This document shows, in pieces, positions 8,308 to 31,384 of a stretch of 64,000 nt of DNA; within the stretch, counting starts at the first letter, position 1, and the number at the start of each line of letters is the position of its first letter. The translations under genes were made by a program, and so were the position numbers. Source of the DNA: an uncultured Oribacterium sp. (GTDB taxonomy: Bacteria > Bacillota > Clostridia > Lachnospirales > Lachnospiraceae). The stretch covers positions 1 to 64,000 of the forward strand of contig CAMKKZ010000002.1 of assembly GCA_946413525.1 (NCBI GenBank), given 5' to 3'. The notes under the pieces were generated by a model. It was not told the DNA's origin and did no database searches. It worked only from the letters and a program-made list of their open reading frames with translations.

Positions 8308-8443
8308 AGTATGGCCTCCAACAACCCGTGATTAGTAAATATATATATTCATGTGCTTCGCAGACATTAGGATAAAATGAATCCTTCCTCTCATTTGATT
8401 CTTATGATTAAAAAATCTTTAAACATACTAGATGATTCAACCA

Positions 8444-8518
8444 TCATCTCTCATATGATTCGAAAATAAGCATCGTATCATTATTGCGCACTCTTATTTT
8501 CTTCACTCTTACGAACAT
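8444..8518 (-). pseudogene. Possible 5' remnant of an IS1634-like transposase gene
   Basis: The minus strand reads MFVRVKKIRVRN from ATG 8518 and stops after 24 codons. This resembles, from memory of the family, the usual opening of IS1634-type transposases (MFVRVK followed by IVESY; here IFESYE). No further transposase sequence and no clear inverted repeats were found. It suggests that an insertion sequence once occupied this spacer. Weak because it is short. Confidence 0.3.
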
Positions 8519-8742
8519 ATTGCGGTTCTTTCTTGCAACTCCGCAATGATTTAATAATTCCTAGATGGCTGCATTACACTAATCTGCGTTTCATTAGGTT
8601 TCCAATGACAAATAGTGCCCGCACTACACAAAAATGGATAGATGTTTTCTACTACCCATCCTAATGTCATCAGGCATCAATCGAACCATATTTTATAGAC
8701 TGCTGTGATTTCAATTACTTTGAAGCCCTCATACAAATAAGC

Positions 8743-8790
8743 CCTCCATACATGTATGAAACTGTTGTATTAGTTCAATGTATGGAGGAT
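8743..8790 (-). terminator. Hairpin related to that at 18445, possible intra-operon terminator
   Basis: An 11-bp inverted repeat, cctccatacat (8743-8753) and atgtatggagg (8778-8788), with a 24-nt spacer. On the plus strand it is followed by attttacac; on the minus strand by a weaker run. It lies between two operon segments and its sequence is shared with 18445-18496. It could be a terminator overcome by the LoaP-like protein, or the footprint of a mobile element. Confidence 0.4.
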
Positions 8791-8861
8791 TTTACACTAT
8801 TTCACAAATATTATTCTAATGTACTATGCAAATTTGTCATCTGAAAACATTTTATTCAGAA

Positions 8862-10184
8862 TTATAATCTCCACCATTGCAGTCCTGAGGATTTCAAATC
8901 TTCAACCTTGTATAACCCTTTAACATCAATAAGGACTTTCCCATCATCTACCCCATCCCTATACATTTTCTTGATATCTTCCAGAGAGAGCTCTTTAAAT
9001 TCTTTGTGCGCTACAGCAACAATGATGCAGTCGGCATTATTAACATCCTCAAGCCTGGTGAGTTCTACGCCGTACTCATTCATTGCGTCTTTTTCATTTG
9101 CCCAGGGATCAACAATTATGGGTATAATTCCAAAACGAGCTAATTCATTAATAATGTCATCAACTTTGCTATTTCTAGTATCAGGGCAATTTTCTTTGAA
9201 AGTGAGGCCAAGAATCACAACCTTGCTCTTTTTCGGTGCCTGACCTGCTTCGATCATCTTGTGAACAGCCTTATCCGCCACATATGCGCCCATACTATCA
9301 TTTACTATACGACCATTGAGAATTATCTGACTATGGTAACCAAGCTTCTCTGCCTCATAGGTAAAGTAGTAAGGATCAACCCCAATACAATGACCTCCGA
9401 CCAAACCAGGCCTGAACCCAAGCGCATTCCACTTGGTGTTCATTCCATCCACAACTTCGTTAGTATCAATATTCATACGATCGAATACCATGGCAAGCTC
9501 ATTCATAAAAGCTATATTGATATCACGCTGACTGTTCTCTACAACCTTTACTGCTTCAGCTGTTCTAAGATTAGATACTGGATATGTACCAATCTCAATC
9601 ACGAGATCATACACAGCCTTAATCTCTCTAAGTGCCTCTTCATCAATACCAGAAACAATCTTGTGAATATTTTCAAGCCGATGTAGCTTATCACCGGGAT
9701 TAATTCGTTCCGGACTATAACCCACTTTGAAATCGACCCCACATTTCAATCCACTCTGTTTCTCCAAAATTGGAATGCAGACATCTTCTGTACATCCGGG
9801 ATATACAGTTGACTCATAAACCACAATTGACCCTGGAACAAGGTAACGACCTACAATCTCTGAAGCACTAATCACCGGTGTCAAATCTGGAGTGTGATCT
9901 GTGTTCACAGGAGTCGGAACTGCAACAATATGGAACTTTGCTTTTTGAAGATCCTCCTCATCAGACGTAAATCGCACAGATGTTCCTGATATAACCTCGT
10001 TGCCAACCTCCCTGGTCGGATCTACGCCAGATTTATAAAGTTCAATCTTCTCTTTATTCAAATCAAAACCAATAACAGTAATGCCCTTTTTCGCAAAGGC
10101 CACAGCAATGGGCATTCCAACGTAGCCAAGGCCAACGACAGCAAGATTTTCTTCGTGTTTTAGCAGTTTATTGTAAAGTTCCAA
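8862..10184 (-). CDS. UDP-N-acetylhexosamine 6-dehydrogenase (WbpA/WbpO/TviB type)
   Basis: 440 residues of the UDP-glucose/GDP-mannose dehydrogenase family: N-terminal NAD-binding GLGYVG (18-23), central dimer domain, active-site Cys266 in GGHCIGVDPYYF, and a C-terminal UDP-binding domain. It oxidises the C6 of a UDP-HexNAc to the uronic acid in two NAD-dependent steps. The surrounding WNALGFRPGLVGGHC resembles TviB/WbpO/WbpA-type enzymes more than UDP-glucose dehydrogenase. The start is TTG 10184, with aaggagag 8 nt upstream; no ATG fits. It should give the uronic acid substrate for the WlbA-, WbpE- and acyltransferase-like products encoded just upstream. Confidence 0.9.
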   Translation of the reverse strand: MELYNKLLKHEENLAVVGLGYVGMPIAVAFAKKGITVIGFDLNKEKIELYKSGVDPTREVGNEVISGTSVRFTSDEEDLQKAKFHIVAVPTPVNTDHTPDLTPVISASEIVGRYLVPGSIVVYESTVYPGCTEDVCIPILEKQSGLKCGVDFKVGYSPERINPGDKLHRLENIHKIVSGIDEEALREIKAVYDLVIEIGTYPVSNLRTAEAVKVVENSQRDINIAFMNELAMVFDRMNIDTNEVVDGMNTKWNALGFRPGLVGGHCIGVDPYYFTYEAEKLGYHSQIILNGRIVNDSMGAYVADKAVHKMIEAGQAPKKSKVVILGLTFKENCPDTRNSKVDDIINELARFGIIPIIVDPWANEKDAMNEYGVELTRLEDVNNADCIIVAVAHKEFKELSLEDIKKMYRDGVDDGKVLIDVKGLYKVEDLKSSGLQWWRL

Positions 10185-10205
10185 TTTGTTTCTCTCCTTT
10201 TTGTA

Positions 10206-11360
10206 TTACCAACATATTTCTTTTTTCAATTCTGATGCAACGAAATCCACATCCTTTTTTGTCATATATGGATCAATCGGAAGGCTAAGAACAGTGTCAC
10301 AAAGCAATTCCGTGACCGGACAATCAGCAATAGCCGAATCGGTTCCGGCAAATGCTCCCTGTTTATGCATTGGCTTTGCATAATAGACCATAGAAGGAAT
10401 GCCTTTCTTGCCCAATTTTTCCTGGATTACCTTACGATTTAATCCTTCTGGCAACCGAATCGTGTATTGTGCCCAGGAACTATAAAAAGAATCCGCAATA
10501 TGTGGTAACTCAAGTCCTGTTCCCCTTAATCCATCTGTATACCAGGCCGCAATCTGATTAATGTCCCTCAACTCATAATCCACAAAAGCTTTGAATTTTG
10601 GAAGAAGAATTGCTGCCTGCAATGTATCCAAACGGCTGTTCTTTCCCAGCCTTACATTATTATATTTCGCCTCTGAATCATTTGGATTACTTGTATCTTT
10701 GCCATGTACACAAATGGAACGGATCAAATCAGCCCACTCATCATTATTTGTAAAGATGGCACCACCATCTCCATAACAACCAAGAGGCTTCGCTGGAAAA
10801 AATGATGTAGTAGAAATATCTCCAAAACTACATGCCATTTTACCCTTAATACTTCCTCCAAAGCCCTGAGCACCATCTTCTAAGAGTAGTAGATTGTACT
10901 TTTTACAAAGCAACTTGATAGTTTCATAATCTGCAGGAAGTCCAAAGAGATCAACCGCAATAACTGCTTTTGCCGTATACTTTCCTTCATTAATAACCCT
11001 TTTTATCGTTTTTTCCAGCTTGGATGGGTCAATGTTATATGTAAACGGATTAACATCAACAAAAATCGGTGTTGCGCCTTCATCGGCAGGGCATTCACCA
11101 GATGAGAAAAATGTGAAATCCGGAACAAATACGGCATCTCCGTGGCCAATCCCCCACGTTTTCATAGCTATAGAAATAGCATCGGTTCCATTAGCGCAGG
11201 TAATGCAGTGTTTGACACCAACATATTCAGATAATGCCTTTTCAAGTTTATGAACCTCAGGACCATTAATAAAATGTGAAGTTGAAGCTACGCCTACCAT
11301 GGCAACATCAATCTGTTCTTTTAACGCCACATACTGTTTACGTAAATCCCTGAATTGCAC
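10206..11360 (-). CDS. DegT/DnrJ/EryC1 sugar aminotransferase, WbpE/WlbC-like
   Basis: 384 residues, PLP-dependent fold type I. The Schiff-base lysine is K191 (SFFPAKPLGCYGDGG) and the PLP-ring aspartate D162 (LLLEDGAQ). FFPAKPLG matches the WbpE/WlbC group, which aminates C3 of UDP-2-acetamido-3-keto-uronic acid using glutamate. The WlbA-like oxidase (14353-15441) would make that 3-keto substrate. Start is GTG 11360 behind a G-rich ribosome site, 14 bp after the 3-hydroxyacyl-CoA dehydrogenase gene. In this setting the amine it makes would be the acceptor for the LpxD-like acyltransferase encoded two genes further upstream (13395-14291). Confidence 0.88.
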   Translation of the reverse strand: MQFRDLRKQYVALKEQIDVAMVGVASTSHFINGPEVHKLEKALSEYVGVKHCITCANGTDAISIAMKTWGIGHGDAVFVPDFTFFSSGECPADEGATPIFVDVNPFTYNIDPSKLEKTIKRVINEGKYTAKAVIAVDLFGLPADYETIKLLCKKYNLLLLEDGAQGFGGSIKGKMACSFGDISTTSFFPAKPLGCYGDGGAIFTNNDEWADLIRSICVHGKDTSNPNDSEAKYNNVRLGKNSRLDTLQAAILLPKFKAFVDYELRDINQIAAWYTDGLRGTGLELPHIADSFYSSWAQYTIRLPEGLNRKVIQEKLGKKGIPSMVYYAKPMHKQGAFAGTDSAIADCPVTELLCDTVLSLPIDPYMTKKDVDFVASELKKEICW

Positions 11361-11374
11361 CCTTGCCCCCCACT

Positions 11375-12208
11375 CTAATATTTATAAAATCCTTCCCCTG
11401 TCTTACGTCCAAGCTTTCTTTCTCTTACCATTTTCTTAAGCATCGGCTGAGGAAGATACCTGTTATCTCCTGTTTCCCTCAACATTACGTTAAGAATTGC
11501 AAGGACAACATCCAAACCAATTAAATCACCGAGTGCCAAAGGACCCATTGGCTGATTTGCGCCAAGCTTCATTGCAATATCTATATCTTCAACACTGGCA
11601 ATCCCCTCTGCATAGATACTGATTGCTTCATTAATCATAGGAATGAGCACTCTGTTAACAACAAAACCTGGTGCTTCCTTGACCACTATAGGCGTCTTTC
11701 CTATATCCTTTGCAATAGAAACCACAAACTCTGTAATCCCCGGAGGAGTTGTTGCCGAGATAATTACCTCTACAAGTTTCATCACAGGTGCTGGATTAAA
11801 AAAATGCATTCCAATAAGAGGTCTTTTCATGCCATCAGCAATCTCCTTGATCGGTAGGGACGACGTATTTGTCGCAAAAATGCATTCTTTCTTGCAAATA
11901 CTTTCAAGCCCCTTAAACACCATTCGTTTAATATCCAGATCTTCAGCAACAGCTTCAATCACGAAATCTACATCTGCGGCATTGTCAAGATCACCATCAT
12001 AAATCTTTTCAAGATATCCATCTGCAGCTTGCCTTTCCATTTTCTTCCTGTCAACCAATATGTCAAGTGCTCTGGCAACGATCTCCTTTCCTTCACGGGA
12101 ACTCTGACGTCCTTTGCATATATATACTCGACCTATACGGTCACACTGGGAAAAAACCTGAGCAATCGTCGTCCCTAATGTTCCTGTTCCAATAACGGCA
12201 ACTTTCAC
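11375..12208 (-). CDS. 3-hydroxybutyryl-CoA dehydrogenase (3-hydroxyacyl-CoA dehydrogenase family)
   Basis: 277 residues from GTG 12208, which overlaps the TGA of the thiolase gene (GTGA) and has gaggagg upstream. The longer frame to 12259 runs into the thiolase gene and is not needed. NAD-binding GTGTLG is at residues 7-12; NTSSLP, the catalytic-His stretch MHFFNPAPVMKLVEV and EAPGFVVNR follow, and the C-terminal helical domain ends with GRKTGEGFYKY, all typical of Hbd. It reduces acetoacetyl-CoA to (S)-3-hydroxybutyryl-CoA. No crotonase, bcd or etf genes are nearby, so the complete butyrate pathway is not here. The product probably feeds the acyltransferase at 13395-14291. Confidence 0.9.
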   Translation of the reverse strand: MKVAVIGTGTLGTTIAQVFSQCDRIGRVYICKGRQSSREGKEIVARALDILVDRKKMERQAADGYLEKIYDGDLDNAADVDFVIEAVAEDLDIKRMVFKGLESICKKECIFATNTSSLPIKEIADGMKRPLIGMHFFNPAPVMKLVEVIISATTPPGITEFVVSIAKDIGKTPIVVKEAPGFVVNRVLIPMINEAISIYAEGIASVEDIDIAMKLGANQPMGPLALGDLIGLDVVLAILNVMLRETGDNRYLPQPMLKKMVRERKLGRKTGEGFYKY

Positions 12209-13389
12209 TGCACGCACCTCCTCACGATTGTCGAACATCCCATTCCTCCTCCAATACATAGTGTTGCAAGACCCATTTGCGTTTCTCTCAACTCATGAAT
12301 CAAGGTAACGAGAATTCGACAACCTGATGCCCCAATAGGATGACCAAGCGCAATTGCACCGCCGTTGATATTCAATTTTCTATCCAATATATTCAACTCA
12401 CGCTGAACAACAATAGACTGAGCTGCAAAAGCTTCATTAACTTCAACAATATCAATATCATCCATATCCATATTTAGCTTTGCAAAAAGTTTTCTTGTGC
12501 TGTCTATTGGTCCTATTCCCATGATTGCAGGATCAACGCCGGCTATCGCCCCTCCAAGCCATTCAGCTTGCGGCAATATGTCAAGCTCTTTAACTTTGTC
12601 TTCTGATATCAGCACAACTACTGCTGCTCCATCATTTATTCCAGAGCTGTTTCCAGCAGTTACTTTTCCATCAGCCTTGAATGCAGGACGAAGCTTCTCC
12701 AATCCTTCTACTGTAGTGCCAGGCCTCGGCCCCTCATCTGTATTAACAACTATTTCGAGATTACGTTCTTTGACAATGACCGGGACTATTTCTTTCTTAA
12801 ACCGCCCTTCAGCTATGGCTGTTACAGCTTTTTCCTGGCTTGCTACCGAAAAGGCATCAAGTTCGTGACGCGTTATTCTATATCTCTCAGCAAGATTCTC
12901 CGCAGTTATCCCCATGTGATAATCATTTATAGCATCCCAAAGTCCATCGTTTACCATGGTGTCTATTAGTGGCGTGTTAATCATAGGGTTACCCATACGA
13001 TAGCCAAACCTCGCCTGTTTCAATGCAAATGGTGCGTTTGACATAGATTCAGTTCCACCAGCAATAACAACATCCGCATCACCTGTTTGAATAATTCGCG
13101 CGGCTGAGTTCACCGCATCCAATCCTGACCCACAGACAATGTTTAGAGTTTCAGCAGTAGTTGTGAATGGAAGCCCCGCCTTTATTGCGGCTTGTCTTGC
13201 AATATTTTGTCCAAGTGCGGACTGAAGAACACATCCCATACAAACATGATCTACCTTATCTACCCCCGCTCTTTTAACTGCTTCTTTTATAACCAGCGCA
13301 CCAAGATCTACCGCTGTGACAGATGCCAGCACTCCTCCCATTTTTCCAATAGGCGTTCGACATGCGCCAAGGATAAATACTTTCTTCAT
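12205..13389 (-). CDS. Acetyl-CoA C-acetyltransferase (thiolase)
   Basis: 394 residues, full thiolase length. The acyl-accepting Cys86 sits in NIVCGSGL, the catalytic His in GGAIALGHPIGASG, and the second Cys in the C-terminal IGGGMGCS. It condenses two acetyl-CoA to acetoacetyl-CoA. The stop overlaps the start of the hydroxyacyl-CoA dehydrogenase gene, so the two enzymes are made together, and it starts 5 bp after the LpxD-like gene. Embedding of this pair in a capsule locus is unusual and suggests local supply of 3-hydroxybutyryl-CoA. The ribosome site is weak (A/G-rich). Confidence 0.92.
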   Translation of the reverse strand: MKKVFILGACRTPIGKMGGVLASVTAVDLGALVIKEAVKRAGVDKVDHVCMGCVLQSALGQNIARQAAIKAGLPFTTTAETLNIVCGSGLDAVNSAARIIQTGDADVVIAGGTESMSNAPFALKQARFGYRMGNPMINTPLIDTMVNDGLWDAINDYHMGITAENLAERYRITRHELDAFSVASQEKAVTAIAEGRFKKEIVPVIVKERNLEIVVNTDEGPRPGTTVEGLEKLRPAFKADGKVTAGNSSGINDGAAVVVLISEDKVKELDILPQAEWLGGAIAGVDPAIMGIGPIDSTRKLFAKLNMDMDDIDIVEVNEAFAAQSIVVQRELNILDRKLNINGGAIALGHPIGASGCRILVTLIHELRETQMGLATLCIGGGMGCSTIVRRCVQ

Positions 13390-13394
13390 GCTTA

Positions 13395-14291
13395 TTATTT
13401 CTTTCTTTCAAAGCGTCTGGCAGGATTTCCCGCAACAGTGACATTTGCCTCCACAGATTTCGTCACAGTAGCCCCCATGCCAATAACTGCGTTATCACCA
13501 ACTATAATTCTATTGCGCAGAACAGCGTTTATACCCACATATGCATGATTGCCCAAAATATCAAAACCGCCAATAATACCGCCTGCAGTAATCTCGACAT
13601 TTCTGTGCAAATGAACATCATGACCAAGATGCACTAAAGCATCAATCTTGGTATTGTCCTCGATGATAGTATCACCTGCAGACCCGCATGAAACATTATC
13701 GTGAGCTCCAATCTCAACATTATTCCCTATAACTACTCTGCCTAATGTTGGAATGCGGAACTTATTGCCATATTCATCTTCAGTCATAGTGAAGCCATTT
13801 GTGCCAATTGCTGAATATTCATTGGCGATAAAATCATCGCCAATGGTTGCCCTTCGAATAACAGCCCCCGCCAGAATCCGGGCATTCTTACCTATCTGCA
13901 CATCCGGTCCAATGACACATCCGGGTTCTATATACGCATCTTCTGGAATAGAAATGTCAGAACTGCTATAGTATCCAGCAGGTTCAAGACTAAACTTTAG
14001 TTTTTTTTCTTCCTTAAATCGCTCTTCTGCAAATCGTGCAGCAAATCTTGCATACTCTAGCTGCGGTGACTTAGTGAAACGAAACACATGAGAAGACATC
14101 AGTTTTTCTGGTACTCTTATGCCATCTTCTGCAAAAATCAGGCACTCCTTCACAGCATCCAGAGTATTCAAAAGATGCTCAACCTTCTTTGTAATATACA
14201 TTGCTGTATTAGATTTCGGAGCGCCGATATATGAAATCCCTACAATATCAAAATACTTTTCAGCTTCAATGCTACTAAAATCCAGCCTCAT
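13395..14291 (-). CDS. LpxD-like left-handed beta-helix N-acyltransferase
   Basis: 298 residues from ATG 14291 (aggag 7 nt upstream; a GTG lies one codon earlier). About 110 N-terminal residues form an LpxD-like uridine-binding-type domain, followed by hexapeptide repeats of a left-handed beta-helix. TKIDALVHLGHDVHL aligns with the LpxD active-site signature; H224 corresponds to the catalytic His of LpxD. LpxD moves a 3-hydroxyacyl chain to an amino sugar, but lipid A does not fit the rest of this genome window. Its position directly before thiolase and 3-hydroxybutyryl-CoA dehydrogenase genes suggests it transfers a 3-hydroxybutyryl group to a UDP-amino sugar. Acetyl transfer is the alternative. 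Confidence 0.8.
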   Translation of the reverse strand: MRLDFSSIEAEKYFDIVGISYIGAPKSNTAMYITKKVEHLLNTLDAVKECLIFAEDGIRVPEKLMSSHVFRFTKSPQLEYARFAARFAEERFKEEKKLKFSLEPAGYYSSSDISIPEDAYIEPGCVIGPDVQIGKNARILAGAVIRRATIGDDFIANEYSAIGTNGFTMTEDEYGNKFRIPTLGRVVIGNNVEIGAHDNVSCGSAGDTIIEDNTKIDALVHLGHDVHLHRNVEITAGGIIGGFDILGNHAYVGINAVLRNRIIVGDNAVIGMGATVTKSVEANVTVAGNPARRFERKK

Positions 14292-14352
14292 CACGCTGCT
14301 CCTCTTCTCGACATTTTCATCAAAAACACTTGTTGGATGTATATATTCTTGT

Positions 14353-15441
14353 TCATTTCATAATTTTCCGTTCACCGAACCGTCCAGCGAAATCCAATGT
14401 TGAACAATCTGCAAGTGGCAGCTTCACTGGCAGCCCTTCCGCAGATGACTTATAAATAGCAAGAACCAATTCGAGAGCTCTTCTGCCATCTTCTGCGGTA
14501 ACATAAGGTTCCCTGTTCAGCTCAATTGCCTCAACTACATCTTTATAAAGCGGCGTATGTCCAAACCCATATACATTAGGGGGATTTTCATGGAACTGAC
14601 GCATTACCTCTTCAGGTTCATCCAATTGATCTGAAAAACGCCATTCCTCAATACGGTTTACACTTGTTCCACCTGCTTTAATAGTTCCTTTCTCACCAAA
14701 CAAATACAATGTTTCCTCGAGATTCTTCGGATAAATATCTGTAGTGCCCTCAAGGATTCCATAACTTCCGTTCTTGAACTTGATGAGTGCAATGCCAAGA
14801 TCTTCTGCTTCAATATAATCATGATTAAGTTTATCTGTCATACCCATGACTGTATCAATTTCATTACCTAGCATCCATCGTAAGAGATCGGCGTTGTGAA
14901 TGCACTGATTCATAAGGGCACCGCCATCCTGTTCCCATGTTCCGCGCCAATCAGCTCTCGAATAATACTCCCAATCACGGCACCATCGGATATGAGCTGC
15001 TCCATAAAACATTTTCCCAAAACGGCCTTTATCTACAGCATCACGGATTTTTTGAATTGATTTATTGAAACGATTTTGATGATTAGCACAAACCTTTACA
15101 CCCTTTTCATGTCCTCTCCGAATGATTTCATCGGCATCCTTTAATGATAGTGCAATGGGTTTCTCAACAATCACATTACATCCCGCATCAATACAATCAA
15201 GAGCAATTGCTGCATGTTTACCTGATTCCGTACAGATTGCAACAAGATCCGGTTTTTCTTTCTCCAGCATTTCCAAATAATTCGTATATGTGTGAATCGG
15301 ATCCAATTCAAATTTTAGTATCTTATCATGCATATTTGTCGGATTAATGTCACAAATGCCAACAAACTCCAAATGATTAGCTTTCGCTGCCGCAATATGG
15401 TTTGGACTGATACGTCCACATCCAATAAGAGAATATTTCAT
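14353..15441 (-). CDS. Gfo/Idh/MocA oxidoreductase, WlbA/WbpB-like UDP-GlcNAcA 3-oxidase
   Basis: 362 residues. An N-terminal Rossmann domain (GCGRISPNHI, residues 7-16), the family lysine in EKP (93-95), and a C-terminal substrate domain with RGTWEQDGGALMNQ followed by His, as in WbpB/WlbA. These oxidise the 3-hydroxyl of UDP-GlcNAc-uronic acid with tightly bound NAD. Upstream lies a doubled ribosome site (caaaggagg repeated in tandem just before the ATG). Downstream follow the LpxD-like gene, thiolase, Hbd, aminotransferase and dehydrogenase genes, so all enzymes for a 2,3-diamino uronic acid are in one run. Confidence 0.9.
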   Translation of the reverse strand: MKYSLIGCGRISPNHIAAAKANHLEFVGICDINPTNMHDKILKFELDPIHTYTNYLEMLEKEKPDLVAICTESGKHAAIALDCIDAGCNVIVEKPIALSLKDADEIIRRGHEKGVKVCANHQNRFNKSIQKIRDAVDKGRFGKMFYGAAHIRWCRDWEYYSRADWRGTWEQDGGALMNQCIHNADLLRWMLGNEIDTVMGMTDKLNHDYIEAEDLGIALIKFKNGSYGILEGTTDIYPKNLEETLYLFGEKGTIKAGGTSVNRIEEWRFSDQLDEPEEVMRQFHENPPNVYGFGHTPLYKDVVEAIELNREPYVTAEDGRRALELVLAIYKSSAEGLPVKLPLADCSTLDFAGRFGERKIMK

Positions 15442-16054
15442 TGCCTCCTTTGCCTCCTTTGCCTGTAAGCGTCCAAGATAGCCCTATGTTTTATGAAACA
15501 AATAATATTTTTGCTTTTTCCCATCTGTGACAAATAAAAAAAGGTCTTGAAAAAGAACGGAAACGTCTATTTCCAGTCTTTCTCAATCCCTTTTGAGTTA
15601 AATTTCTCGTTTTTGGTTTCAGGCCACGCCCCCACGTACAGAGACGGCACGGAGTGCATCCGGCGACTCGCCTTTGAACCTTATTTTCACGTTTCCGGAC
15701 GACATCTCAGATTCTGCCACACATTCATTCACATGGTAAGCCTTCTGCTTCTGCTCCTATTCAATGTGTATTGATGATCAGGGCATCCTCTCGGCAAACC
15801 ATCCATTCCTGTCCCCAACGACCTTCTACTCTAGCTTCACATATTCCTCGACGATGAATTATATGTAGCAGTAGTTACCTGACCTATTTTCAATCAATAT
15901 TTGAAACTTCTCGTTGATCAAATTTCCTTATATCAAATCACACTATTGCTCGACAATCTATCACCATACGAGTGATTGAGTGGGCTCATTGGATATCTAT
16001 ACGTTGAATCAAATCCTTTGCTAATAATGAAAAGTCAGTGAAATAGAGATTTTA
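15442..16054. other. 613-bp gene-free spacer with a terminator
   Basis: Apart from the hairpin terminator at 15536-15594, no gene was found. Short open stretches on both strands carry no recognisable motif. The DNA is AT-rich towards 16054. It separates the diamino-sugar gene run from the WbpD-RES fusion gene. Confidence 0.5.
15536..15594 (-). terminator. Rho-independent terminator after the WbpD-RES fusion gene
   Basis: Read on the minus strand, a long imperfect stem (aaaagg...gagaaaga...ggaaa pairing with tttcc...tctttttc...cctttt) ends in an uninterrupted T run. It would stop transcription coming from the fusion gene. For one transcript to cover the whole locus, it must be read through. 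Confidence 0.65.
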
Positions 16055-18046
16055 TCACAAGGTTTCTCGCTTCTGTGAACACAAATAATTATCAAATCTC
16101 GAAAATTCGGTATCACCGTAGAAAACATCTACATTATCTAATTTTATTTTACAGCTAAAACAATTTCGGTCATCGTAAATCTTATTAATAAAACTTCTTT
16201 CTGTCCGCTCATCCTGCTTATCAAATTTAACTGGCTTTGTTATATGAAACTTACTACAGTACTTACTAAACTGGTTGTTTTCATCTATATCAAAAGCAGG
16301 AATAGCCAGGTTCACCCCATGCGGATATTGGAATTCGTCATCACCCTGCGCTGATAGGTAGGCTATGCCGTCAATTCCTACTCTTTGAATAACATCCATA
16401 AGACACTGGGATATGAGGTACTCATACTTCTTTTCTAGGCTCGTATTCTTGATTCTATATGACATTGCAAGCACCAATGGATAGAGTTTTAGCATTGCGC
16501 GCTGTAAATCTATGCAATTCCCTTTTTCCTTTTCTGTACCCCTCCACCCGATACCATCAATGAGATATTGTGATATGGCAAGGTTAAGGACTTTCAACCT
16601 TTTCCCATCCTCAGTCGGCATAAAGGCAGAACCGTAGAGTTCCTGCGTATCTTCATTCCACCTACACTCTTTCGCACAAATCCACGAAGTTACAGCCAAG
16701 TACAAACACGGGTTCCCCTTTCTGCTATACCTCATATCACAGGCTTTTGAAGCCAATTTATACGGCAAATGGACGATGTCTTCAAGTTTTGATATAGTAG
16801 TAAGATTATCATTTATACTTTTCGTCCTCACCCTAAAGAACGTAAGGCTTGTAGTTAGGCTCTTCCTATACGTACTATCAAAACCGGGGACTCTCAAACA
16901 CTGATACGGTGCTAGCCCCCTAAATGCGTATGACTCATCAAGATTACTCACTAAAAATCCCTCGTCAATGAAAGGTTTCAAGAAATCACCTAGCAATCTT
17001 TCCGCTGCACATCTATTTTCATCCTTTAGTTGCATGAAGATAGTCTTGATGCTTTCACAGTTATTTTGAACGGATGTAATCAAGTCCTTGTCATATGCAA
17101 AGGCTGGCTTGTCCAATGCATCAAGAAACTCATCCAGCTTTGCCCTTAAATCGTTCTCATAGTCTTGATTGCTCTCTACCTCGATAGGTAATCCTGCAAC
17201 ATTTATATTCCTATCTTTATATGCTTGAGACCAAGTGTCGAAATTATACTCATTCAGTGAAAAGAGTTGTTTGTGACACTCGTTACCTTTTAACTTATAC
17301 TTCTTTATCTCCCCTTCAACCGAGTAAATCCGAGCGTCTTTCCAGCCACATATGGCCATCGTCTCCCTCGCCTCTTCTAACGAGTATCCCACGGGATTAC
17401 AATCTTTTTTAGGAATCCACGCTTCATTGTCATGCACAATAATTAGATTATTTGGAATGTTATTTGGTGAAAGCTGCTTTAATGCATCATCAATAACCAC
17501 ATATTGCTTTCTACATTCCGAACAGCTAAAAAAACATGAAACGGTAGATTTCAGTACCTCTCCACACTCGCAGACCCAGCTTGTCTGCTTTGCCGGGACA
17601 CCAGCAAATAATGCGTGCGGCGGTACATCAGAAGTTACCACTGCTCCATCTGCAATTGTGGCGTAAGCCCCCACTTCATGACCACAGACGATGGTAGCGT
17701 TTGCACCTATAGTAGCGTCATGGCAAATCAAAATTGGTTTATGCTTATGGTTCTTTGGATATTTAGCGCGACGGGTCAAATCATTCGTAAACACACAGCC
17801 GGAACCACAAAATACATAATCTTCTAAAGTCACTCCTTCGCAAACTGATACGTTATTCTGAATTTTAACGTGAGAACCTATCATAACATTGTTTGAAATA
17901 TTCACATTCTGCCCTAACGAACAGGCTTCCCCAATCACCGTGCCAGATTGGACGTGGCAAAATTGCCTGATTATGGTATCCTTTCCAATTGTGACATGAT
18001 CATCTATTATTGCTGATTCGTGTTTAATAAAACCTTTATCTTCCAA
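16055..18046 (-). CDS. Fusion of WbpD/WlbB-type sugar N-acetyltransferase with a RES-domain (NAD-degrading toxin-like) protein
   Basis: 663 residues in one uninterrupted frame. Residues 1-155 are a left-handed beta-helix acetyltransferase of the WbpD/WlbB type (VFCGSGCVFTND at 78-89; IADGAVVTSDVPPHALFAGVPA). Residues 159-178 form a zinc-ribbon-like CxCG...CSEC. At about residue 200 the sugar enzyme would normally end, but the frame continues. Residues 400-570 carry the marks of a RES domain: FFRVR (Arg405/407), RYSRKGNPCLYLA (439-451), Glu460 in AKECR, and DGIAYLS (Ser565). RES enzymes in RES-Xre systems destroy NAD. No Xre-type antitoxin gene is next to it. Start is TTG 18046 with ggaga upstream. 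It has its own candidate promoter and terminator, like an independent cassette. Confidence 0.75.
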   Translation of the reverse strand: MEDKGFIKHESAIIDDHVTIGKDTIIRQFCHVQSGTVIGEACSLGQNVNISNNVMIGSHVKIQNNVSVCEGVTLEDYVFCGSGCVFTNDLTRRAKYPKNHKHKPILICHDATIGANATIVCGHEVGAYATIADGAVVTSDVPPHALFAGVPAKQTSWVCECGEVLKSTVSCFFSCSECRKQYVVIDDALKQLSPNNIPNNLIIVHDNEAWIPKKDCNPVGYSLEEARETMAICGWKDARIYSVEGEIKKYKLKGNECHKQLFSLNEYNFDTWSQAYKDRNINVAGLPIEVESNQDYENDLRAKLDEFLDALDKPAFAYDKDLITSVQNNCESIKTIFMQLKDENRCAAERLLGDFLKPFIDEGFLVSNLDESYAFRGLAPYQCLRVPGFDSTYRKSLTTSLTFFRVRTKSINDNLTTISKLEDIVHLPYKLASKACDMRYSRKGNPCLYLAVTSWICAKECRWNEDTQELYGSAFMPTEDGKRLKVLNLAISQYLIDGIGWRGTEKEKGNCIDLQRAMLKLYPLVLAMSYRIKNTSLEKKYEYLISQCLMDVIQRVGIDGIAYLSAQGDDEFQYPHGVNLAIPAFDIDENNQFSKYCSKFHITKPVKFDKQDERTERSFINKIYDDRNCFSCKIKLDNVDVFYGDTEFSRFDNYLCSQKRETL

Positions 18047-20075: not shown

Positions 20076-21059
20076 TTACCCGTATTGCATTACATATTTT
20101 GACGCATTAATGATTGTCTTTCTATCTGGATAGTACGCCTCCTCCAGCGATTGACTTGCAGGTGCCGGTGCATCTGGAAGGGTTACAAGCTCCACCGGTG
20201 AGTGCAATTCCTTATAATGCTCTTTATATACACCTTCAGCAATGGACGCAGCTACACTTGAAAAATACCATTCCGCTATGGCAATCACTACCCTTTTCGT
20301 CTTTTTGACGCTATTGTTCACTGTTTCCATATCTACGGGCTTGATTGTGCGGAGGTCTACCACTTCAGTTGAAATGCCTTCTTTAGCGAGTTCATCCGCT
20401 GCCTCTATCGCCTCCTTCACCATAAACGATGCTGCAACAATACTAAGGTCTGATCCTTCTCGAAGTATATTCGCCCTGCCGATTGGTGTTTCGTAATCCC
20501 CTTCTGGTACATCATCTTCAACTTCGTACAACCAGCGGTCATCAATATATATCACAGGATCCGGATCCCTCAGTGCCGCAAGCAAAAGCCCCTTTGCGTC
20601 TTTTGCCGTTGCTGGTGTCACAACTTTGAGGCCGGGAATATTTGCGTATATTCCAAAAGGGCTCTGTGAATGCTGGGCTCCCTGTTCCCCTCCCCTGTTA
20701 ACGATTCCGCGGATTACAATCGGCACATTTATTTTCCCATTGAACATATAGTTCCATGAGGCACAATGATTAATGATCTGATCCAGCGTAAGATACATGA
20801 AATCCATGCGCGGATGAAATACAACCGGATGCGCGCCGGCCATTGCGGCGCCGATACATGCCCCTGTCATTGCAGCCTCACTCACCGGTGAATCCATTAC
20901 GCGCTCTGCGCCAAACTCATCCGCCAATCCCGTAGTTGTCCGACCTACAAACCAGGGATTATTCACTCCTTGCCCTATCAGGAAGCACTTTGGATCTTTT
21001 TCCAGCGCAATCCGATGTGCTTCATTGATTGCGTCACCATAACTCAACAACCTGCTCAT
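20076..21059 (-). CDS. ThDP-dependent 2-oxoacid dehydrogenase E1 component, beta subunit (orphan)
   Basis: 327 residues, full E1-beta length with a transketolase-type pyrimidine-binding domain (DSPVSEAAMTGACIGAAMAG; GAQHSQSPF) and a C-terminal transketolase domain (VDLRTIKPVD). The ATG overlaps the E1-alpha stop by 4 bp, so the two subunits are coupled. No E2 acyltransferase, lipoyl domain or E3 gene occurs in the locus, so it is unlikely to form a classical dehydrogenase complex. PDH-E1-like pairs of this kind are reported for two-carbon branched sugars in macrolide deoxysugar pathways (from memory, aldgarose), and a sugar-modifying carboligase is a plausible role. Confidence 0.88.
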   Translation of the reverse strand: MSRLLSYGDAINEAHRIALEKDPKCFLIGQGVNNPWFVGRTTTGLADEFGAERVMDSPVSEAAMTGACIGAAMAGAHPVVFHPRMDFMYLTLDQIINHCASWNYMFNGKINVPIVIRGIVNRGGEQGAQHSQSPFGIYANIPGLKVVTPATAKDAKGLLLAALRDPDPVIYIDDRWLYEVEDDVPEGDYETPIGRANILREGSDLSIVAASFMVKEAIEAADELAKEGISTEVVDLRTIKPVDMETVNNSVKKTKRVVIAIAEWYFSSVAASIAEGVYKEHYKELHSPVELVTLPDAPAPASQSLEEAYYPDRKTIINASKYVMQYG

Positions 21060-22087
21060 ACTGGCATAACCTCTTTGCTGTAAACATGACGAAGAAGCGT
21101 GTCCGGCGATGGTTTCGGATCCTTCAGTGCCTTGTCCTCTGCAATGTCAACCTTTTCCTGAATCTTTTTATGTATCATCTCCAACTCTTTCTCAGAAACG
21201 GTTCCCTCGCCTTTCAGCTTATTCTCCAGGTTTGCAATAGGATCTCTTCTCTTCCAGTAATCCAGTTCTTCCCGGCTCCTTAATCCAACGTCAATATCAT
21301 CACGATTTCCAACGTGTCCAAGCCAACGATAAGTTCTGGTTTCAATGTATTGCGGTCCCTCTCCGTTCCTTAACCGTTCCACTGCATCCATTGCTGCCGA
21401 ATTCACTGCGAATAAATCATTTCCGTCAACGATTTCTGTATGAAGCCCATGTGCTCTTGCCACTTCATATATATTGTCGTTCACTCTTCTGTCCTTTAGT
21501 GCTGCCGATGCCGCATACAAATTATTTTCGCAAATATATAATACAGGTAATTTTTTTACCGCTGCAAAATTTAAAGATTCATGCCATATTCCCTCTTCTG
21601 GCACACAGTCCCCATGAAATATGCAGCTGATATTATCTTCATGGAAAATCTTGCTTTTGAACGCCGGCCCAAGTCCGATGCCTACCGTCCCTGCCACTAT
21701 CGAGGATGAACCCAGCAATCCAACAGAAGGGTCGCATAAATGCATGGATCCGCCTCTTCCTCCGGAACACCCTGTCTCCCGGCAGTATATTTCAGCAAAC
21801 AGTTCATTCACATCGCCTCCTTTTGCAAGGAAATGTCCATGAGATCTGTGCGTGCTGAACACATAATCAGTATCCCTAAGCGCAAAGCATACCCCGACTG
21901 CGTCGGCCTCCTGGCCTATGTAAAGATGACATGGAGTAAAAACCTTCTTCTCCTCCACCCTTTTTGCGATTCTTTGTTCTGTAAGCCGAATAAGCAGCAT
22001 TCTCTCAAGCATGGAAAGAATCGTTTCTTTTTTTATGCCTTTTTTGTTTTCTAATACTGGAAGTTCTGGCACTGTAAACTGAACCAT
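21056..22087 (-). CDS. ThDP-dependent 2-oxoacid dehydrogenase E1 component, alpha subunit (orphan)
   Basis: 343 residues of the AcoA/PdhA type. GQEADAVG, then the ThDP/Mg motif that starts at HGDC (158-161) and ends at ENN (187-189). The usual GDG is GDC here (Cys161), a noticeable variation in the cofactor site. Coupled to the beta subunit. It lies next to the aldo/keto reductase gene (30 bp gap). The pair should decarboxylate a 2-oxoacid such as pyruvate and pass the two-carbon unit to an unknown acceptor. Function in polymer synthesis is inferred from place only. Confidence 0.87.
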   Translation of the reverse strand: MVQFTVPELPVLENKKGIKKETILSMLERMLLIRLTEQRIAKRVEEKKVFTPCHLYIGQEADAVGVCFALRDTDYVFSTHRSHGHFLAKGGDVNELFAEIYCRETGCSGGRGGSMHLCDPSVGLLGSSSIVAGTVGIGLGPAFKSKIFHEDNISCIFHGDCVPEEGIWHESLNFAAVKKLPVLYICENNLYAASAALKDRRVNDNIYEVARAHGLHTEIVDGNDLFAVNSAAMDAVERLRNGEGPQYIETRTYRWLGHVGNRDDIDVGLRSREELDYWKRRDPIANLENKLKGEGTVSEKELEMIHKKIQEKVDIAEDKALKDPKPSPDTLLRHVYSKEVMPV

Positions 22088-22117: not shown

Positions 22118-23059
22118 TCATCCTGATTTATCCAAAAGTGCTGCAATATCTTCTTCCAGGAGATTCCAATCCGATGATTTGCATATCTCCTCAACCTGAT
22201 TTCGTCTCTTCATACCCACGAGGGCAACTGAATCCCTTAAATAGTCTAGAATGAAACGAATCGCAATGGCTGTAGGTTCTTTTCCATATTTACTGCCAAG
22301 CTTTCTCAATTCATCAACTATATCCAGGTTTTTTTGCAGCTTTTCACCATGAAAATTCGGATATGTTGCTCGTGATCTTCTGTCATTTTTTTCAAAAACA
22401 ACATCCCGTCCATATTTTCCGGTAAGGATGCCCTGTCCCAAACTGCCCCACGTAAAAGGAGTAACATCTATGTCTTCAGCAATCCTAATGATATCTCCTT
22501 CATAATCCCTGAAAGCCAGACTGTACTGATCCTGAAAGGAAACAAATCTTCCTTTAAAAGGGAGTAGCGTTTCTATATCCCTTTCAAGGACATTCGAAAG
22601 CCCGTAATATCGAATCTTCCCTTCCTTTTTCAGTTGTTCCAATACTCCGATGACATCAACTATTGGAGTGATCCCATCAAGATTATGGATCTGATATATA
22701 TCTATATAGTCCGTCTGCAGCCTTGTCAGACTTCCTTCTATTGCCTTCCGGATCCACTTCGGTGAATTATCATAATATGTCCTTGTGTTGTCCTCTGTTC
22801 TTCTTACTCCAAATTTAGAAGCAATAAAAACCTTGTCACGTCTTCCTTTAAGAGCCTTCCCCAGAATTGTCTCGGCTGTACCAAGTCCATATACATCCGC
22901 CGTATCAAAAAAATTAATTCCCTTATCTATACCGCTATGTACGGCATCTATGAGCTCCGCTTCGTTTGTTTCGCCCCATGCGTGACCGCCCATGGGATCA
23001 CCGCCCAGGCATATCCTCGAAACACTCAAATCTGAATTTCGCAATGTCAGATATTCCAT
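22118..23059 (-). CDS. Aldo/keto reductase
   Basis: 313 residues. A TIM-barrel aldo/keto reductase with the catalytic tetrad in view: FFDTADVYG (Asp, Tyr), SKFG (Lys) and YQIHNLD (His), and a C-terminal NADP-binding segment. ATG 23059 is chosen because ggagaag sits 6 nt before GTG-ATG; a GTG start one codon earlier (23062) is equally possible. The stop of the sugar transferase gene touches it. Between the E1 pair and the sugar transferase it probably reduces a keto-sugar or a carboligation product; the substrate is not evident. Confidence 0.87.
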   Translation of the reverse strand: MEYLTLRNSDLSVSRICLGGDPMGGHAWGETNEAELIDAVHSGIDKGINFFDTADVYGLGTAETILGKALKGRRDKVFIASKFGVRRTEDNTRTYYDNSPKWIRKAIEGSLTRLQTDYIDIYQIHNLDGITPIVDVIGVLEQLKKEGKIRYYGLSNVLERDIETLLPFKGRFVSFQDQYSLAFRDYEGDIIRIAEDIDVTPFTWGSLGQGILTGKYGRDVVFEKNDRRSRATYPNFHGEKLQKNLDIVDELRKLGSKYGKEPTAIAIRFILDYLRDSVALVGMKRRNQVEEICKSSDWNLLEEDIAALLDKSG

Positions 23060-23062
23060 CAC

Positions 23063-25283: not shown

Positions 25284-26651
25284 CTAGCGAAAACATCTTT
25301 TGATGATCTCAATCACAGTATCCTGTTGCGATTCTGTCATTTTGATATCTGAAGGCAGGCACAATCCCCTTTCAAAAATATCCGTACTCACGGATATTTC
25401 TTCACCACCGGAAATATAAGCATTAGTACGCGCCCTGCCGTTGCCATTTTGGGTGACAAAGACGTTACTCATGAAAAACGGCTGCATATGCATAGGCTTC
25501 CAGATTGGACGACCCTCAGCGTTAAAAGCCGCCATTGCCTCCAGAATCTCTGTTGGACAGGTTTTTCCAGGAACCGTAAGATAAATGGCCATTCTTTCCG
25601 ATCGAGTTGACTCGCACATAGCCTCCCTGTCGATAAGCACACAGGAAAGCCAATAGTTGGAACGGATTTCCTGCCCATCTGCCACACCACCTCCGGTTCG
25701 GGAGTCATCCATTGACGTGCCGTCCGGGTTCATTTTCATTGGCATGCCGAGAAAAGCGTCCCGATACCTCCTGTAAATGCCCTGTTTCTGCATTAGATGC
25801 TTTTCAATATAATTCCACTGCCCACGAATAACGCCGGCAATGACATTGGAAATACGGTAGTTGTACCCAAGCTCCTCATGCTCGTACCAGGGTGCGGCCT
25901 CCCTGCTCTGGGTAGACCATTTCCTGGCCTTATTGGCACTGTATTCATCACGTGTGAGAAGAACCCCGCCTGCGGAGCCTGTGATAATCTTATTTCCGTT
26001 AAAACTCAGCACCCCGTAATCGCCATAGCTTCCGGTTTGCTTTCCGCCTATGGATGCGCCCAGACTTTCTGCCGCATCCTCGATGAGCAGCGCGTTATGC
26101 CGCTCGCAGATTTCCTTGATTTCACGGATTTTTCCAGGCATGCCGTACAAATGAACAAAGACGACCAGTCTGACATCCGGATATAGCTTGAAGGCCTTTT
26201 CCAGCGACTCCGGATCCATATTCCAGGTTTCATATTCGGAATCTATAAAAACAGGCTCACCTCCCTCATAGACTACAGGATTGACTGTTGCCCCAAATGT
26301 CAGATCTGAACAAAATATTTTTTTTCCGAGCAGTGCTCCTCCATAACCGCGGCCGGATGGGGTGCTTATCCCCGTTGAGGATCCATAAAGCACTTCCGCC
26401 GCCAGCTTTACCGCCAGATGAAGGGCTGCGGTGCCGCAGGATAGTGCTACAGCATAAGGCATGTTTGTGAAATCCGCGGTCAGCCTTTCTATTTCATTAA
26501 TATTTTCACCCATCGTTGTCATCCAATTGGAATCATAGGCTTCGCGCATATACTCCATTTCTTCCCCATGCATTGTCGGCGAAGAAAGCAGCGCCCTAGA
26601 TGAAAGTGGTGAAAGATCTGCAAACCTTGAATCTTTCCTGAAATCATGCAT
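25284..26651 (-). CDS. DegT/DnrJ sugar aminotransferase, PglE-like (with catalytic Lys)
   Basis: 455 residues from ATG 26651 (aaaaagg upstream; a TTG at 26687 gives 467). The PLP-ring Asp192 (LLIEDAAESLGA) and the Schiff-base Lys221 (LSFNGNKIITGSAGG) are present. The opening SNWMTTMGENINE and the NGNKIITGSAGG stretch resemble PglE/LegC-type enzymes that aminate C4 of UDP-4-keto-6-deoxy-GlcNAc. No 4,6-dehydratase gene is in the locus, so the keto substrate would have to come from elsewhere. The protein is longer than usual because of inserts near residues 88-106 and 320-345. Its upstream neighbour is a diverged tandem paralog lacking the lysine. Confidence 0.87.
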   Translation of the reverse strand: MHDFRKDSRFADLSPLSSRALLSSPTMHGEEMEYMREAYDSNWMTTMGENINEIERLTADFTNMPYAVALSCGTAALHLAVKLAAEVLYGSSTGISTPSGRGYGGALLGKKIFCSDLTFGATVNPVVYEGGEPVFIDSEYETWNMDPESLEKAFKLYPDVRLVVFVHLYGMPGKIREIKEICERHNALLIEDAAESLGASIGGKQTGSYGDYGVLSFNGNKIITGSAGGVLLTRDEYSANKARKWSTQSREAAPWYEHEELGYNYRISNVIAGVIRGQWNYIEKHLMQKQGIYRRYRDAFLGMPMKMNPDGTSMDDSRTGGGVADGQEIRSNYWLSCVLIDREAMCESTRSERMAIYLTVPGKTCPTEILEAMAAFNAEGRPIWKPMHMQPFFMSNVFVTQNGNGRARTNAYISGGEEISVSTDIFERGLCLPSDIKMTESQQDTVIEIIKRCFR

Positions 26652-26757
26652 ATTATTACCTTTTTCCCGTGACCTTCCCTGCTTCAAACGCCCTCATCCG
26701 TCCTAGGTTGTTCCGGCGCGACACTTCCATAATGCATTTCCCTCGCTTGCTCCCATG

Positions 26758-28257
26758 CTATCCCTGCCTGACCCAGTCCTTTTCATCAAAACAGGCGTGA
26801 ATGATTTCAACGATCCTCTCCTGTTCCTGTTCGGTCATACCCGAGGCTGAAGGTAGGCACAGACCGCAGCGAAATATCTCGCTGCTCACTATGCTTCTAT
26901 CTGTCCCTTCAGAATAGAATATCTCTTTTTCTTTTTCGCTTTCATTTATTACCCATGAATTCCCATTTGAGGCAACGCATACTTGCGATTCTTTAGGCAC
27001 ACTGCAGAAATCTGATGTTGCCAGTGAATACCTTCTGAACGCCGGTTCGCTGTGCAACGGTCTGTATACAGGCGCTGCGTCAGCTCCGAATGCCTTTAAT
27101 GCGTCATAAATCTCCATGGGAGCCGCCGCGCCATGAATGCCGTTATACGAATAGCCATCCTCAATGCGGTCTTCCTGAAAATCAATACCACCTTCAACCG
27201 TCATGCAGGACATTTGGAATGCAGGTTCAGCTCCGTACTGATAAGGCATCATCACGCATAGGCTGTCGTCCAGCGTCTCAAGATATCGATCATATATGGC
27301 TTTTCTTCTCTCAATACAAGATTCCCCATTTTGAAGCTCGTCCAATGCCAAAACTGCCGCAAGCATTCCAGGCCTGTATTCCCGCTCCAGCCATTCATTC
27401 TTATACCATGAAATAGGAGTCGAATCAGAATTAGAATTGGACTGGGAAATAGAGTTGAAATTGGGATTAGAATTAGATTTAAAAACAGGATAGGAATTTG
27501 TTCCCAAAGTTTTTTGCGGCTCTTTTGAAAGAAGGATTACGGCATCGGACATGCCGCCGCCTTGAAATCCCAGGACGCTATAGTCTCCAAAGCTCCCACA
27601 GGGTCGGCCATTCAGCCTGGCTCCCAGACTTTCCGATGCGTCTTCGATGAGAAGTGCTCCATGCGTGCTGCAAATACTCCTGATGTTTTCCGCCTGACAG
27701 GGAAATCCATACGGATGATGCATTATGACAATCTTTGTATCCGGAAAATTCTCAAACGCCTTTTCCAATGCTTCGGGATCCATTCCCCAGTCATCCCAGG
27801 AGGCATCGATAAAGACAGGCTCACCACCCTCATACAATACCGGGTTCACCGTGGAGATCGGCGCAAAATCTGAGACAAACACTTTTCTCCCGAAGAGCTC
27901 TCTGCCTGAAATGCATTCCAAGCTGCCGGAATACATACGATCTTTTCCATTCCCATAAATTTCTGCGGCAGCAAGACGCAGAGCTGTCTGAAGCCCCAAT
28001 GTGGAAGATTTCAGAGCCAGGCCACAATCCATCCCAGCGTAATCAGCAGCTCTCCTCTCCACTTCTTTAATAACGGCAAAATATGATTCTGTCGTCTCGT
28101 CCCACTTATAGCCTCCCAAACATTCCTGTGCTTTTCCGATTTTTCCCCATCCGTGATTCAGGAGGTACGGAGAACAAAGGGATACCTTCCTTTCAAATGG
28201 CTCAATGCCCCTGAATCTCGATTCCTCCTTGATGGAATTCATCGCTGCCTCCGTCAC
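26758..28257 (-). CDS. DegT-family paralog lacking the PLP lysine
   Basis: 499 residues, clearly homologous to the 25284-26651 product along its length (FVSDFAPISTVNPVLYEGGEPVFID; LLIEDASESLGARLNG, GSFGDYSVLGFQ). At the position of the Schiff-base lysine it has Gly235 (GFQGGGMSDA), so normal transaminase chemistry should be impossible. ColD-type dehydratases have His there; this has none. An Asn/Ser-rich low-complexity insert (about 259-281) follows. It may be a regulatory or structural partner of the active paralog or a decaying duplicate, although the frame is fully open. First structural gene of the locus, after a 460-bp leader. Confidence 0.8.
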   Translation of the reverse strand: MTEAAMNSIKEESRFRGIEPFERKVSLCSPYLLNHGWGKIGKAQECLGGYKWDETTESYFAVIKEVERRAADYAGMDCGLALKSSTLGLQTALRLAAAEIYGNGKDRMYSGSLECISGRELFGRKVFVSDFAPISTVNPVLYEGGEPVFIDASWDDWGMDPEALEKAFENFPDTKIVIMHHPYGFPCQAENIRSICSTHGALLIEDASESLGARLNGRPCGSFGDYSVLGFQGGGMSDAVILLSKEPQKTLGTNSYPVFKSNSNPNFNSISQSNSNSDSTPISWYKNEWLEREYRPGMLAAVLALDELQNGESCIERRKAIYDRYLETLDDSLCVMMPYQYGAEPAFQMSCMTVEGGIDFQEDRIEDGYSYNGIHGAAAPMEIYDALKAFGADAAPVYRPLHSEPAFRRYSLATSDFCSVPKESQVCVASNGNSWVINESEKEKEIFYSEGTDRSIVSSEIFRCGLCLPSASGMTEQEQERIVEIIHACFDEKDWVRQG

Positions 28258-30966: not shown

Positions 30967-31384
30967 TACAAACTCCCCCCTTAATTTTAGAAACAAACAA
31001 ATAATTTGCCGCTGCCCTGTCACAAATAGGACTTCAATGCCTGCAGCATCAAGTCAAAAAATGACAAACCACGCTGATATGTCAGAATGGAAATTCCTAT
31101 GATGTCCATAATTTTGCTTCTTTCAATTTCCACGTTGCCATGTCAGGATGGAAATTCCGACATGTCTGAATTTGACAGCTTATGGAATATAACAAAAGCA
31201 GTCTGTTGTTTGTATAACTGGGATTATCAGGAACGATTTGAATTTGAGCAATTTCAATACAATTGGGCATGGAAATTGGAATAATTGAGGATTTTTATGC
31301 CTTGAACTTCCTGCTGCCTTTGTCTGCGGGCCTGACTAATTGAGTTTTTATTTTCCCGAAAACAAGCAATTCGGATAAATGCTT

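Follow-up and report, generated by a model that had tools for sequence, protein, structure and literature searches.

Amino sugars carrying 3-hydroxybutanoyl groups are already known from bacterial glycans. In the portions of these sources available to us, N-(3-hydroxybutanoyl) Fuc3N and Qui3N and the transferases FdhC and QdhC are described for E. coli O103, Hafnia and Acinetobacter (PMC4869667), the sugar names also appear in PMC3726653, and capsule typing of A. baumannii lists (R)-3-hydroxybutanoyl sugars together with one (S)-3-hydroxybutanoyl sugar (PMC9676051). Here we describe a stretch of 64,000 nucleotides (the window, by which we mean the whole stretch; contig CAMKKZ010000002.1, assembly GCA_946413525.1) from an uncultured Oribacterium sp. 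of the family Lachnospiraceae, in which a polysaccharide locus contains a thiolase gene (thl) and a 3-hydroxybutyryl-CoA dehydrogenase (HBD) gene (hbd) next to the gene of an LpxD-like acyltransferase. Judged from its sequence and its surroundings, this thl-hbd pair is most likely a transferable unit that supplies (S)-3-hydroxybutyryl-CoA for sugar N-acylation.

The FdhC/QdhC modules resemble the window in that a 3-amino sugar is N-acylated with a 3-hydroxybutanoyl group by an enzyme of the glycan locus; they differ in that the accessible text of PMC4869667 and PMC9676051 mentions the acyltransferase without any genes for making the donor, and the acyl group mostly in its (R) form, the likeness to the window being one of description only. 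Donor-making genes alongside a sugar acyltransferase, as in the window, are found in the viosamine island of P. syringae (vioS, vioR, acp and vioB), which serves an N-(3-hydroxy-1-oxobutyl) sugar according to the excerpts of PMC3927599. That island, however, belongs to a Gram-negative bacterium, acts on a 4-amino sugar of flagellin and follows an acyl carrier protein (ACP) route with KAS III, a 3-oxoacyl-ACP reductase and an ACP, whereas the window has a thiolase and an HBD. The window is not of the viosamine type, as positions 8862-15441 hold the thiolase and HBD and not KAS III, 3-oxoacyl-ACP reductase or ACP genes, with ACP-sized open reading frames (ORFs) of fewer than 90 aa falling outside the ORF list. 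An HBD annotation among capsule genes, again as in the window, occurs in the V. cholerae O31 capsule/O-antigen region, where ORF14 lies two ORFs from a probable acetyl transferase (PMC1847822, Table 6); there, as far as the available text goes, the table contains no thiolase, the reported capsule residues are acetyl only, and 3-hydroxybutyryl is mentioned once, in the table. One further paper, PMC6371046, proved a false lead, its accessible part dealing with poly-3-hydroxybutyrate metabolism.

A model's reading of the letters of this DNA (the original prediction) had proposed that a dedicated donor module joined to an LpxD-like enzyme in a Gram-positive bacterium was, as far as it knew, undescribed. 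This seems to stand for the thiolase-HBD form, since searches of open-licence papers, whose hits were mostly seen as listings, showed no such donor unit in a glycan locus beyond the precedents named above; it does not stand for a donor unit in a glycan locus as such, which has a Gram-negative precedent (PMC3927599).

The genes concerned are as follows.

14353..15441, minus strand: WlbA/WbpB-like UDP-GlcNAcA 3-dehydrogenase of the Gfo/Idh/MocA family (Pfam PF01408/PF02894; nearest solved structures 3q2k/3q2i, which we take to be WlbA, best E 1e-74)
13395..14294, minus strand: LpxD-like left-handed beta-helix acyltransferase, a predicted sugar N-acyltransferase (PF00132; NCBIfam LpxD models at E 1e-39, below cut-off; nearest structures LpxD 2iu8/3eh0; GHD motif)
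12205..13389, minus strand: acetyl-CoA acetyltransferase (thiolase, thl), predicted to make acetoacetyl-CoA (PF00108/PF02803; nearest structure acetyl-CoA acetyltransferase 4n44, E 2e-139; searched motifs present)
11375..12208, minus strand: 3-hydroxybutyryl-CoA dehydrogenase (hbd), with an inferred GTG start (PF02737/PF00725; nearest structure 3-hydroxybutyryl-CoA dehydrogenase 6aa8, E 3e-81)
10206..11360, minus strand: DegT/WbpE-like aminotransferase (PF01041; best match 4qgr, E 1e-96, with WbpE 3nu7 close behind, E 5e-90)
8862..10184, minus strand: UDP-GlcNAc 6-dehydrogenase of the WbpA/TviB type (nucleotide sugar dehydrogenase TIGR03026 above cut-off; nearest structure 4r16)
16055..18046, minus strand: WlbB-like N-acetyltransferase domain (about residues 1-185) fused in frame to a region of about 475 aa (3mqg, presumably WlbB, residues 9-187, E 8e-43)

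The six genes from the WlbA-like gene (first) to the 6-dehydrogenase (last) are all full length and on the minus strand, with intergenic gaps of 58, 5, -4, 14 and 21 bases in that order when hbd is started at GTG 12208. With this start, which is preceded by GGAGG, thl and hbd overlap by 4 bases (GTGA); the ORF list carries a longer mechanical start at ATG 12259. The original prediction's account of the six genes, with their order, leftward strand, families and closeness, is thus borne out by the ORF list, the Pfam and NCBIfam assignments and the gap sizes, and its overlapping thl/hbd stop and start codons are found as this 4-base overlap. All motifs searched for in the thiolase and the HBD were found, among them the presumed catalytic residues. 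The 6-dehydrogenase matches the NCBIfam TviB model with an E of 4e-135 and 450.8 bits, below the cut-off of 592 bits. The region behind the WlbB-like domain has a weak RES-domain match (E 0.009, below the curated cut-off).

Two features do not appear in the original prediction: the LpxD score of the LpxD-like protein, which falls below the cut-off, and the WlbB-like domain upstream of the run. The protein reaches 133.8 bits against an NCBIfam LpxD equivalog cut-off of 242.5 bits, and we therefore rejected its identity as a true LpxD. Alignment to 2iu8/3eh0 nevertheless places the histidine of its GHD motif at what is presumably the position of the LpxD catalytic histidine. An AlphaFold2 model from six sequences was poor (predicted local distance difference test 59), and a Foldseek search with it placed LpxD chains at the top of its ranking with no better than an E of 6e-3 and a TM-score of 0.23; neither was used as evidence. 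Compared with the Wlb/Wbp pathway to UDP-GlcNAc3NAcA (WbpA/WlbA/WbpE/WbpD), the locus has the same 6-dehydrogenase, WlbA-like, WbpE-like and WlbB-like parts, so that this set appears complete, and differs by the additional LpxD-like acyltransferase and thl-hbd between the WlbA-like and WbpE-like genes. Because the WlbB-like domain would complete the set, the LpxD-like enzyme is probably an additional acyltransferase and not the sole one.

In the mechanism we propose, the thiolase would condense two acetyl-CoA to acetoacetyl-CoA, the HBD would reduce this in an NAD(P)H-dependent step to (S)-3-hydroxybutyryl-CoA, and the LpxD-like enzyme would then N-acylate a nucleotide-activated amino sugar with the 3-hydroxybutyryl group. 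Members of the 3HCDH family work on CoA thioesters and yield the (S) form. The likeliest acceptor would be the 3-amino group of UDP-2-acetamido-3-amino-glucuronic acid (UDP-GlcNAc3NA), a sugar whose synthesis by a dehydrogenase, a WlbA-like and a WbpE-like enzyme is encoded in this gene run. The acyl group, its stereochemistry, the acceptor and the enzyme activities are all predictions drawn from gene content.

The rest of the genome argues that thl and hbd serve this locus. Thiolase genes occur at only two places, the window and a locus divided between contigs C64 (at its end) and C60 (at its start), and this second locus repeats the order LpxD-like-thl-hbd, which suggests that the arrangement is more than chance. 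The hbd genes are the two cassette copies and one lone, distant 3HCDH homologue on contig C19 (32% identity). Neither crotonase (PF00378) nor acyl-CoA dehydrogenase (PF00441) has a match at E<=0.001 in this genome, in searches whose controls, run on 14 named genomes, were positive in 13 and 9 of them, respectively. This indicates that thl and hbd feed no usual butyrate pathway, and a genome lacking such a pathway to supply the thioester would have reason to carry a donor unit inside the glycan locus. The second cassette has probably decayed, as there is a TAG within the LpxD-like frame, thl is broken over two contig ends and hbd has a frame break. Read by eye, both of these contig ends carry sequence other than thl, as if an element had inserted into thl, and a transposase-like ORF lies on C64.

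Thiolases of other genomes keep different company. Among 397 genomes of the family, the 29 best THL loci outside the window were taken as controls with flanks of about 1.5 kb, and crotonase or acyl-CoA dehydrogenase lies near thl in 27 of them (24 with crotonase and HBD, one with crotonase only, two with HBD and acyl-CoA dehydrogenase). The remaining two have neither gene, and one of these (L033) ends at a contig end. None of the 29 has an LpxD-like, QdtC-like or WlbB-like gene in these flanks; in one locus (L022) a glycosyltransferase-like ORF was noted by eye upstream, with crotonase downstream. With butyrate-type neighbours at other thl loci and no match for crotonase or acyl-CoA dehydrogenase in our genome, we set aside a role of this pair in butyrate metabolism.

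A second sugar acyltransferase was found to be accompanied by the same kind of pair. A search for HBD in 392 genomes of the order gave 20 with a match at E<=1e-95, our own included. Genome G1124, which belongs to another genus of the same family, encodes two HBDs with 63-64% identity to the window HBD, and both copies (C8 and C9) have the order FdtA/QdtA-like gene, QdtB-like gene, flippase, QdtC-like gene, thl, hbd. In the C8 copy the families were assigned from PF05523 and 2pa7 for FdtA, 3frk (E 6e-160) for QdtB and 3fs8 (E 1e-93) for QdtC, and the C9 copy was judged by its near-identity to it (99.6% for the QdtC-like protein). QdtC is a 3-amino-sugar N-acetyltransferase, so this would be a second, different acyltransferase of 3-amino sugars with thl-hbd directly behind it. 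G1124 shares its FdtA/QdtA-, QdtB- and QdtC-like genes with the QdtA-QdtB-QdtC pathway to dTDP-Qui3NAc and differs from it by this pair, whose position suggests a 3-hydroxybutyryl and not an acetyl product. Seven of seven congeners of G1124 lack an HBD at E<=1e-60, and among the 18 remaining HBD-matching genomes the ten loci that were read (eight unread) all contain crotonase and/or acyl-CoA dehydrogenase. Directly 3' of the C8 pair we also observed a ThsB-TIR-like gene (L073:10462-10893).

Trees were built from loci already fetched, leaving out partial copies and duplicates. The HBDs of glycan loci (window, second cassette and G1124) form one clade with a support of 100/100 against 16 other rows, as do the THLs of the window and G1124 (100/100) against 33 other rows, the second cassette being absent from the THL tree as its thl pieces are too short. 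The lack of crotonase and acyl-CoA dehydrogenase matches, the repeated cassette, the sister pair behind a QdtC-like gene and the separate clades together give thl-hbd the look of a dedicated supply unit. E. coli loci of the Qui3N/Fuc3N type provide a comparison: in the four that were read, of 270 genomes with a match, thiolase or HBD is annotated in none and none was detected by tblastn. In one of them, a Qui3N-type cluster of E. coli X14-3, a gene for a MaoC family dehydratase (L076:8109-8525) lies between those of the QdtC-like N-acetyltransferase and DegT; it could be an enzyme providing an (R)-3-hydroxyacyl-CoA donor.

Relatives of the LpxD-like protein are few. Matches at E<=1e-40 were found in 3 of 397 family genomes, our own included, and at E<=1e-50 there was none outside our genome among 398 genomes of the phylum and 98 relatives (16 of them other members of the genus), two draws that overlap. 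A scan of contigs with two peptide patterns gave at least four relatives: Acetatifactor muris (L017), a Lachnospiraceae metagenome-assembled genome (MAG; L018), a MAG recorded as Bacteroidales (L019) and a Christensenellaceae MAG (L020). The Bacteroidales label is probably wrong, as what appears to be the same contig (G188) is placed in the window's own family. A scan of viral contigs detected no relative; plasmids gave two records with partial LpxD-like matches of less than 35% identity, no QdtC relative at E<=1e-40, and HBD matches in 106 records, all below 60% identity.

These four homologues share 53-70% identity with the window protein, and in all four genomes a WlbA-like gene lies within 2 kb. 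The order is WlbA-WlbB-LpxD-like-DegT-dehydrogenase in A. muris and a plain run of dehydrogenase-WlbA-LpxD-like-DegT in L019. In none of the three MAGs did the 16-21 kb examined contain a separate WlbB-like gene (E<=1e-5), and in L019 the WlbB query touches only the LpxD-like gene itself (22%). Since the LpxD-like gene is accompanied by a WlbA-like one both in the window and in all four relatives of more than 50% identity, and since the DNA read from three of these showed no WlbB-like gene apart from it, we regard the 3-amino group as the likeliest acceptor. In the Christensenellaceae MAG, the WlbA-containing locus has tandem LpxD-like genes (L020:8974-10858) with 31% and 53% identity to the window protein. 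The genomes of A. muris and of the other two MAGs have thl-crt-hbd-bcd elsewhere.

On this evidence we consider it probable, with some reservation, that thl-hbd makes the donor and that the LpxD-like enzyme uses it to acylate an amino sugar, most likely at the 3-amino group of UDP-GlcNAc3NA. A wider proposal we hold more tentatively, at somewhat less than an even chance: thl-hbd may be a transferable acyl-donor cartridge of glycan loci, in which one thiolase/HBD lineage, split from the butyrate-type enzymes, has been joined to different beta-helix N-acyltransferases (LpxD-like with Wlb, QdtC-like with Qdt) in bacteria that lack a butyrate pathway, with (S)-3-hydroxybutyryl 3-amino sugars as the outcome, and in which relatives that have such a pathway would rely on the acyltransferase by itself and take the acyl donor from fermentation. 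The original prediction's central idea, a donor made within the locus for sugar N-acylation, gains support from the G1124 pair, the cassettes, the clades and the lack of crotonase and acyl-CoA dehydrogenase matches. Its further claim, that the 3-amino group receives 3-hydroxybutyryl in place of acetyl, is plausible at most, given the WlbB-like acetyltransferase here and in A. muris. It had suggested a search for the same neighbourhood in other genomes and would have been undone by an adjacency unique to this genome combined with a role in general butyrate metabolism; adjacency of LpxD-like, thl and hbd genes was found only in our genome, whereas thl-hbd beside a sugar acyltransferase was found in G1124 as well, and PF00378 and PF00441 have no match.

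Several observations weigh against this account. The assembly is 93.5% complete, so its gene absences are not absolute, and in G1124, where no further HBD reaches E<=1e-60, the search did not extend to crotonase. No thl or hbd lies beside the LpxD-like gene in any of the four other genomes (16-21 kb read in each); the Lachnospiraceae MAG has, near its copy, a 36% DegT and no 6-dehydrogenases other than distant ones (about 25%); and in the genome of the Christensenellaceae MAG (G845, 2.1 Mb) neither thl (E<=1e-40) nor hbd (E<=1e-30) was matched anywhere. The fit of the other three relatives to the supply argument is weak by itself, since thiolases at E<=1e-60 are present in 205 of 397 family genomes. 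Both at 16055-18046 and beside the A. muris LpxD-like gene there is a coding sequence for a WlbB-like 3-N-acetyltransferase, which could acetylate the 3-amino group and leave the LpxD-like enzyme to work on another site. Near the second cassette, 6.6 kb and 12 kb of sequence showed no WlbA-like gene, 19.9 kb around the most distant LpxD-like homologue (G364, 32% identity) showed none either, and LegC-type aminotransferases at 25284-28257 are another possible source of an amino-sugar acceptor. All of the points in the last two sentences favor a reading that we think unlikely but deserving of serious attention, in which the donor unit is as proposed, UDP-GlcNAc3NAcA arises through acetylation of the 3-amino group by WlbB, and the target of the LpxD-like enzyme is another sugar, for example a LegC-type 4-amino sugar, or a hydroxyl. 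It is countered by the WlbA-like genes adjoining all four 53-70% homologues, with no separate WlbB-like gene in what was read of three of those loci, and by G1124, where thl-hbd of the same lineage follows an enzyme of a kind that acylates 3-amino sugars.

The remaining alternatives leave the acceptor aside. That thl and hbd are chance bystanders serving central metabolism (butyrate, mevalonate or fatty acid oxidation) would agree with how common such thiolases are in the family and with the butyrate-type setting of 27 of the 29 best loci, yet it is very improbable in a genome with no match for crotonase or acyl-CoA dehydrogenase, where two cassettes share an LpxD-like partner, where the thl and hbd clades are separate, and given the pair behind QdtC-like genes in a genus of which seven of seven other members have no HBD at E<=1e-60. 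The transfer of acetoacetyl followed by its reduction on the sugar, or the making of some other short 3-hydroxyacyl donor, also seems improbable. Reduction after transfer has a parallel in the P. syringae vioR mutant, which its authors read as halting at dTDP-N-acetoacetylviosamine (PMC3927599, in the part available), but in the window the reducing enzyme is a 3HCDH-family HBD and not a 3-oxoacyl-ACP reductase. We likewise see little chance that the locus is decaying and not expressed. No ORF of at least 90 aa is listed in the gaps 8308-8861 and 15442-16054, the WlbB gene is fused, and the second cassette is broken; against this, the six window genes are full length and tightly spaced, and the motifs searched for in the thiolase, HBD and LpxD-like proteins are present.

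If a thl-hbd donor unit is what the locus contains, a fermentation-type acyl-CoA would be tied to cell-surface chemistry, and the uncommon (S)-3-hydroxybutyryl decoration would be predictable from sequence alone, the gene signature for such glycans being a sugar N-acyltransferase with thl and hbd and no crotonase. It would also caution that thl and hbd in a genome need not signal butyrate metabolism.

Other parts of the window deserve mention. The aminotransferase ORFs at 25284-28257 are a tandem of the DegT/LegC type, with the family match of the second confined to part of its length. Genes resembling pyruvate dehydrogenase E1 alpha (20076-22087) and beta (22118-23062) are found in the polysaccharide locus together with an aldo/keto reductase, and no E2 or E3 family was found among the window ORFs scanned with Pfam; the E1-like pair perhaps carries out a thiamine diphosphate-dependent step on a sugar. 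The polysaccharide part of the window (1-34000) has a G+C content of 0.34-0.48, compared with 0.49-0.55 in 34000-64000, and a phage-type integrase is encoded at 29824-31023, which together suggest that the polysaccharide part is likely to be acquired DNA.

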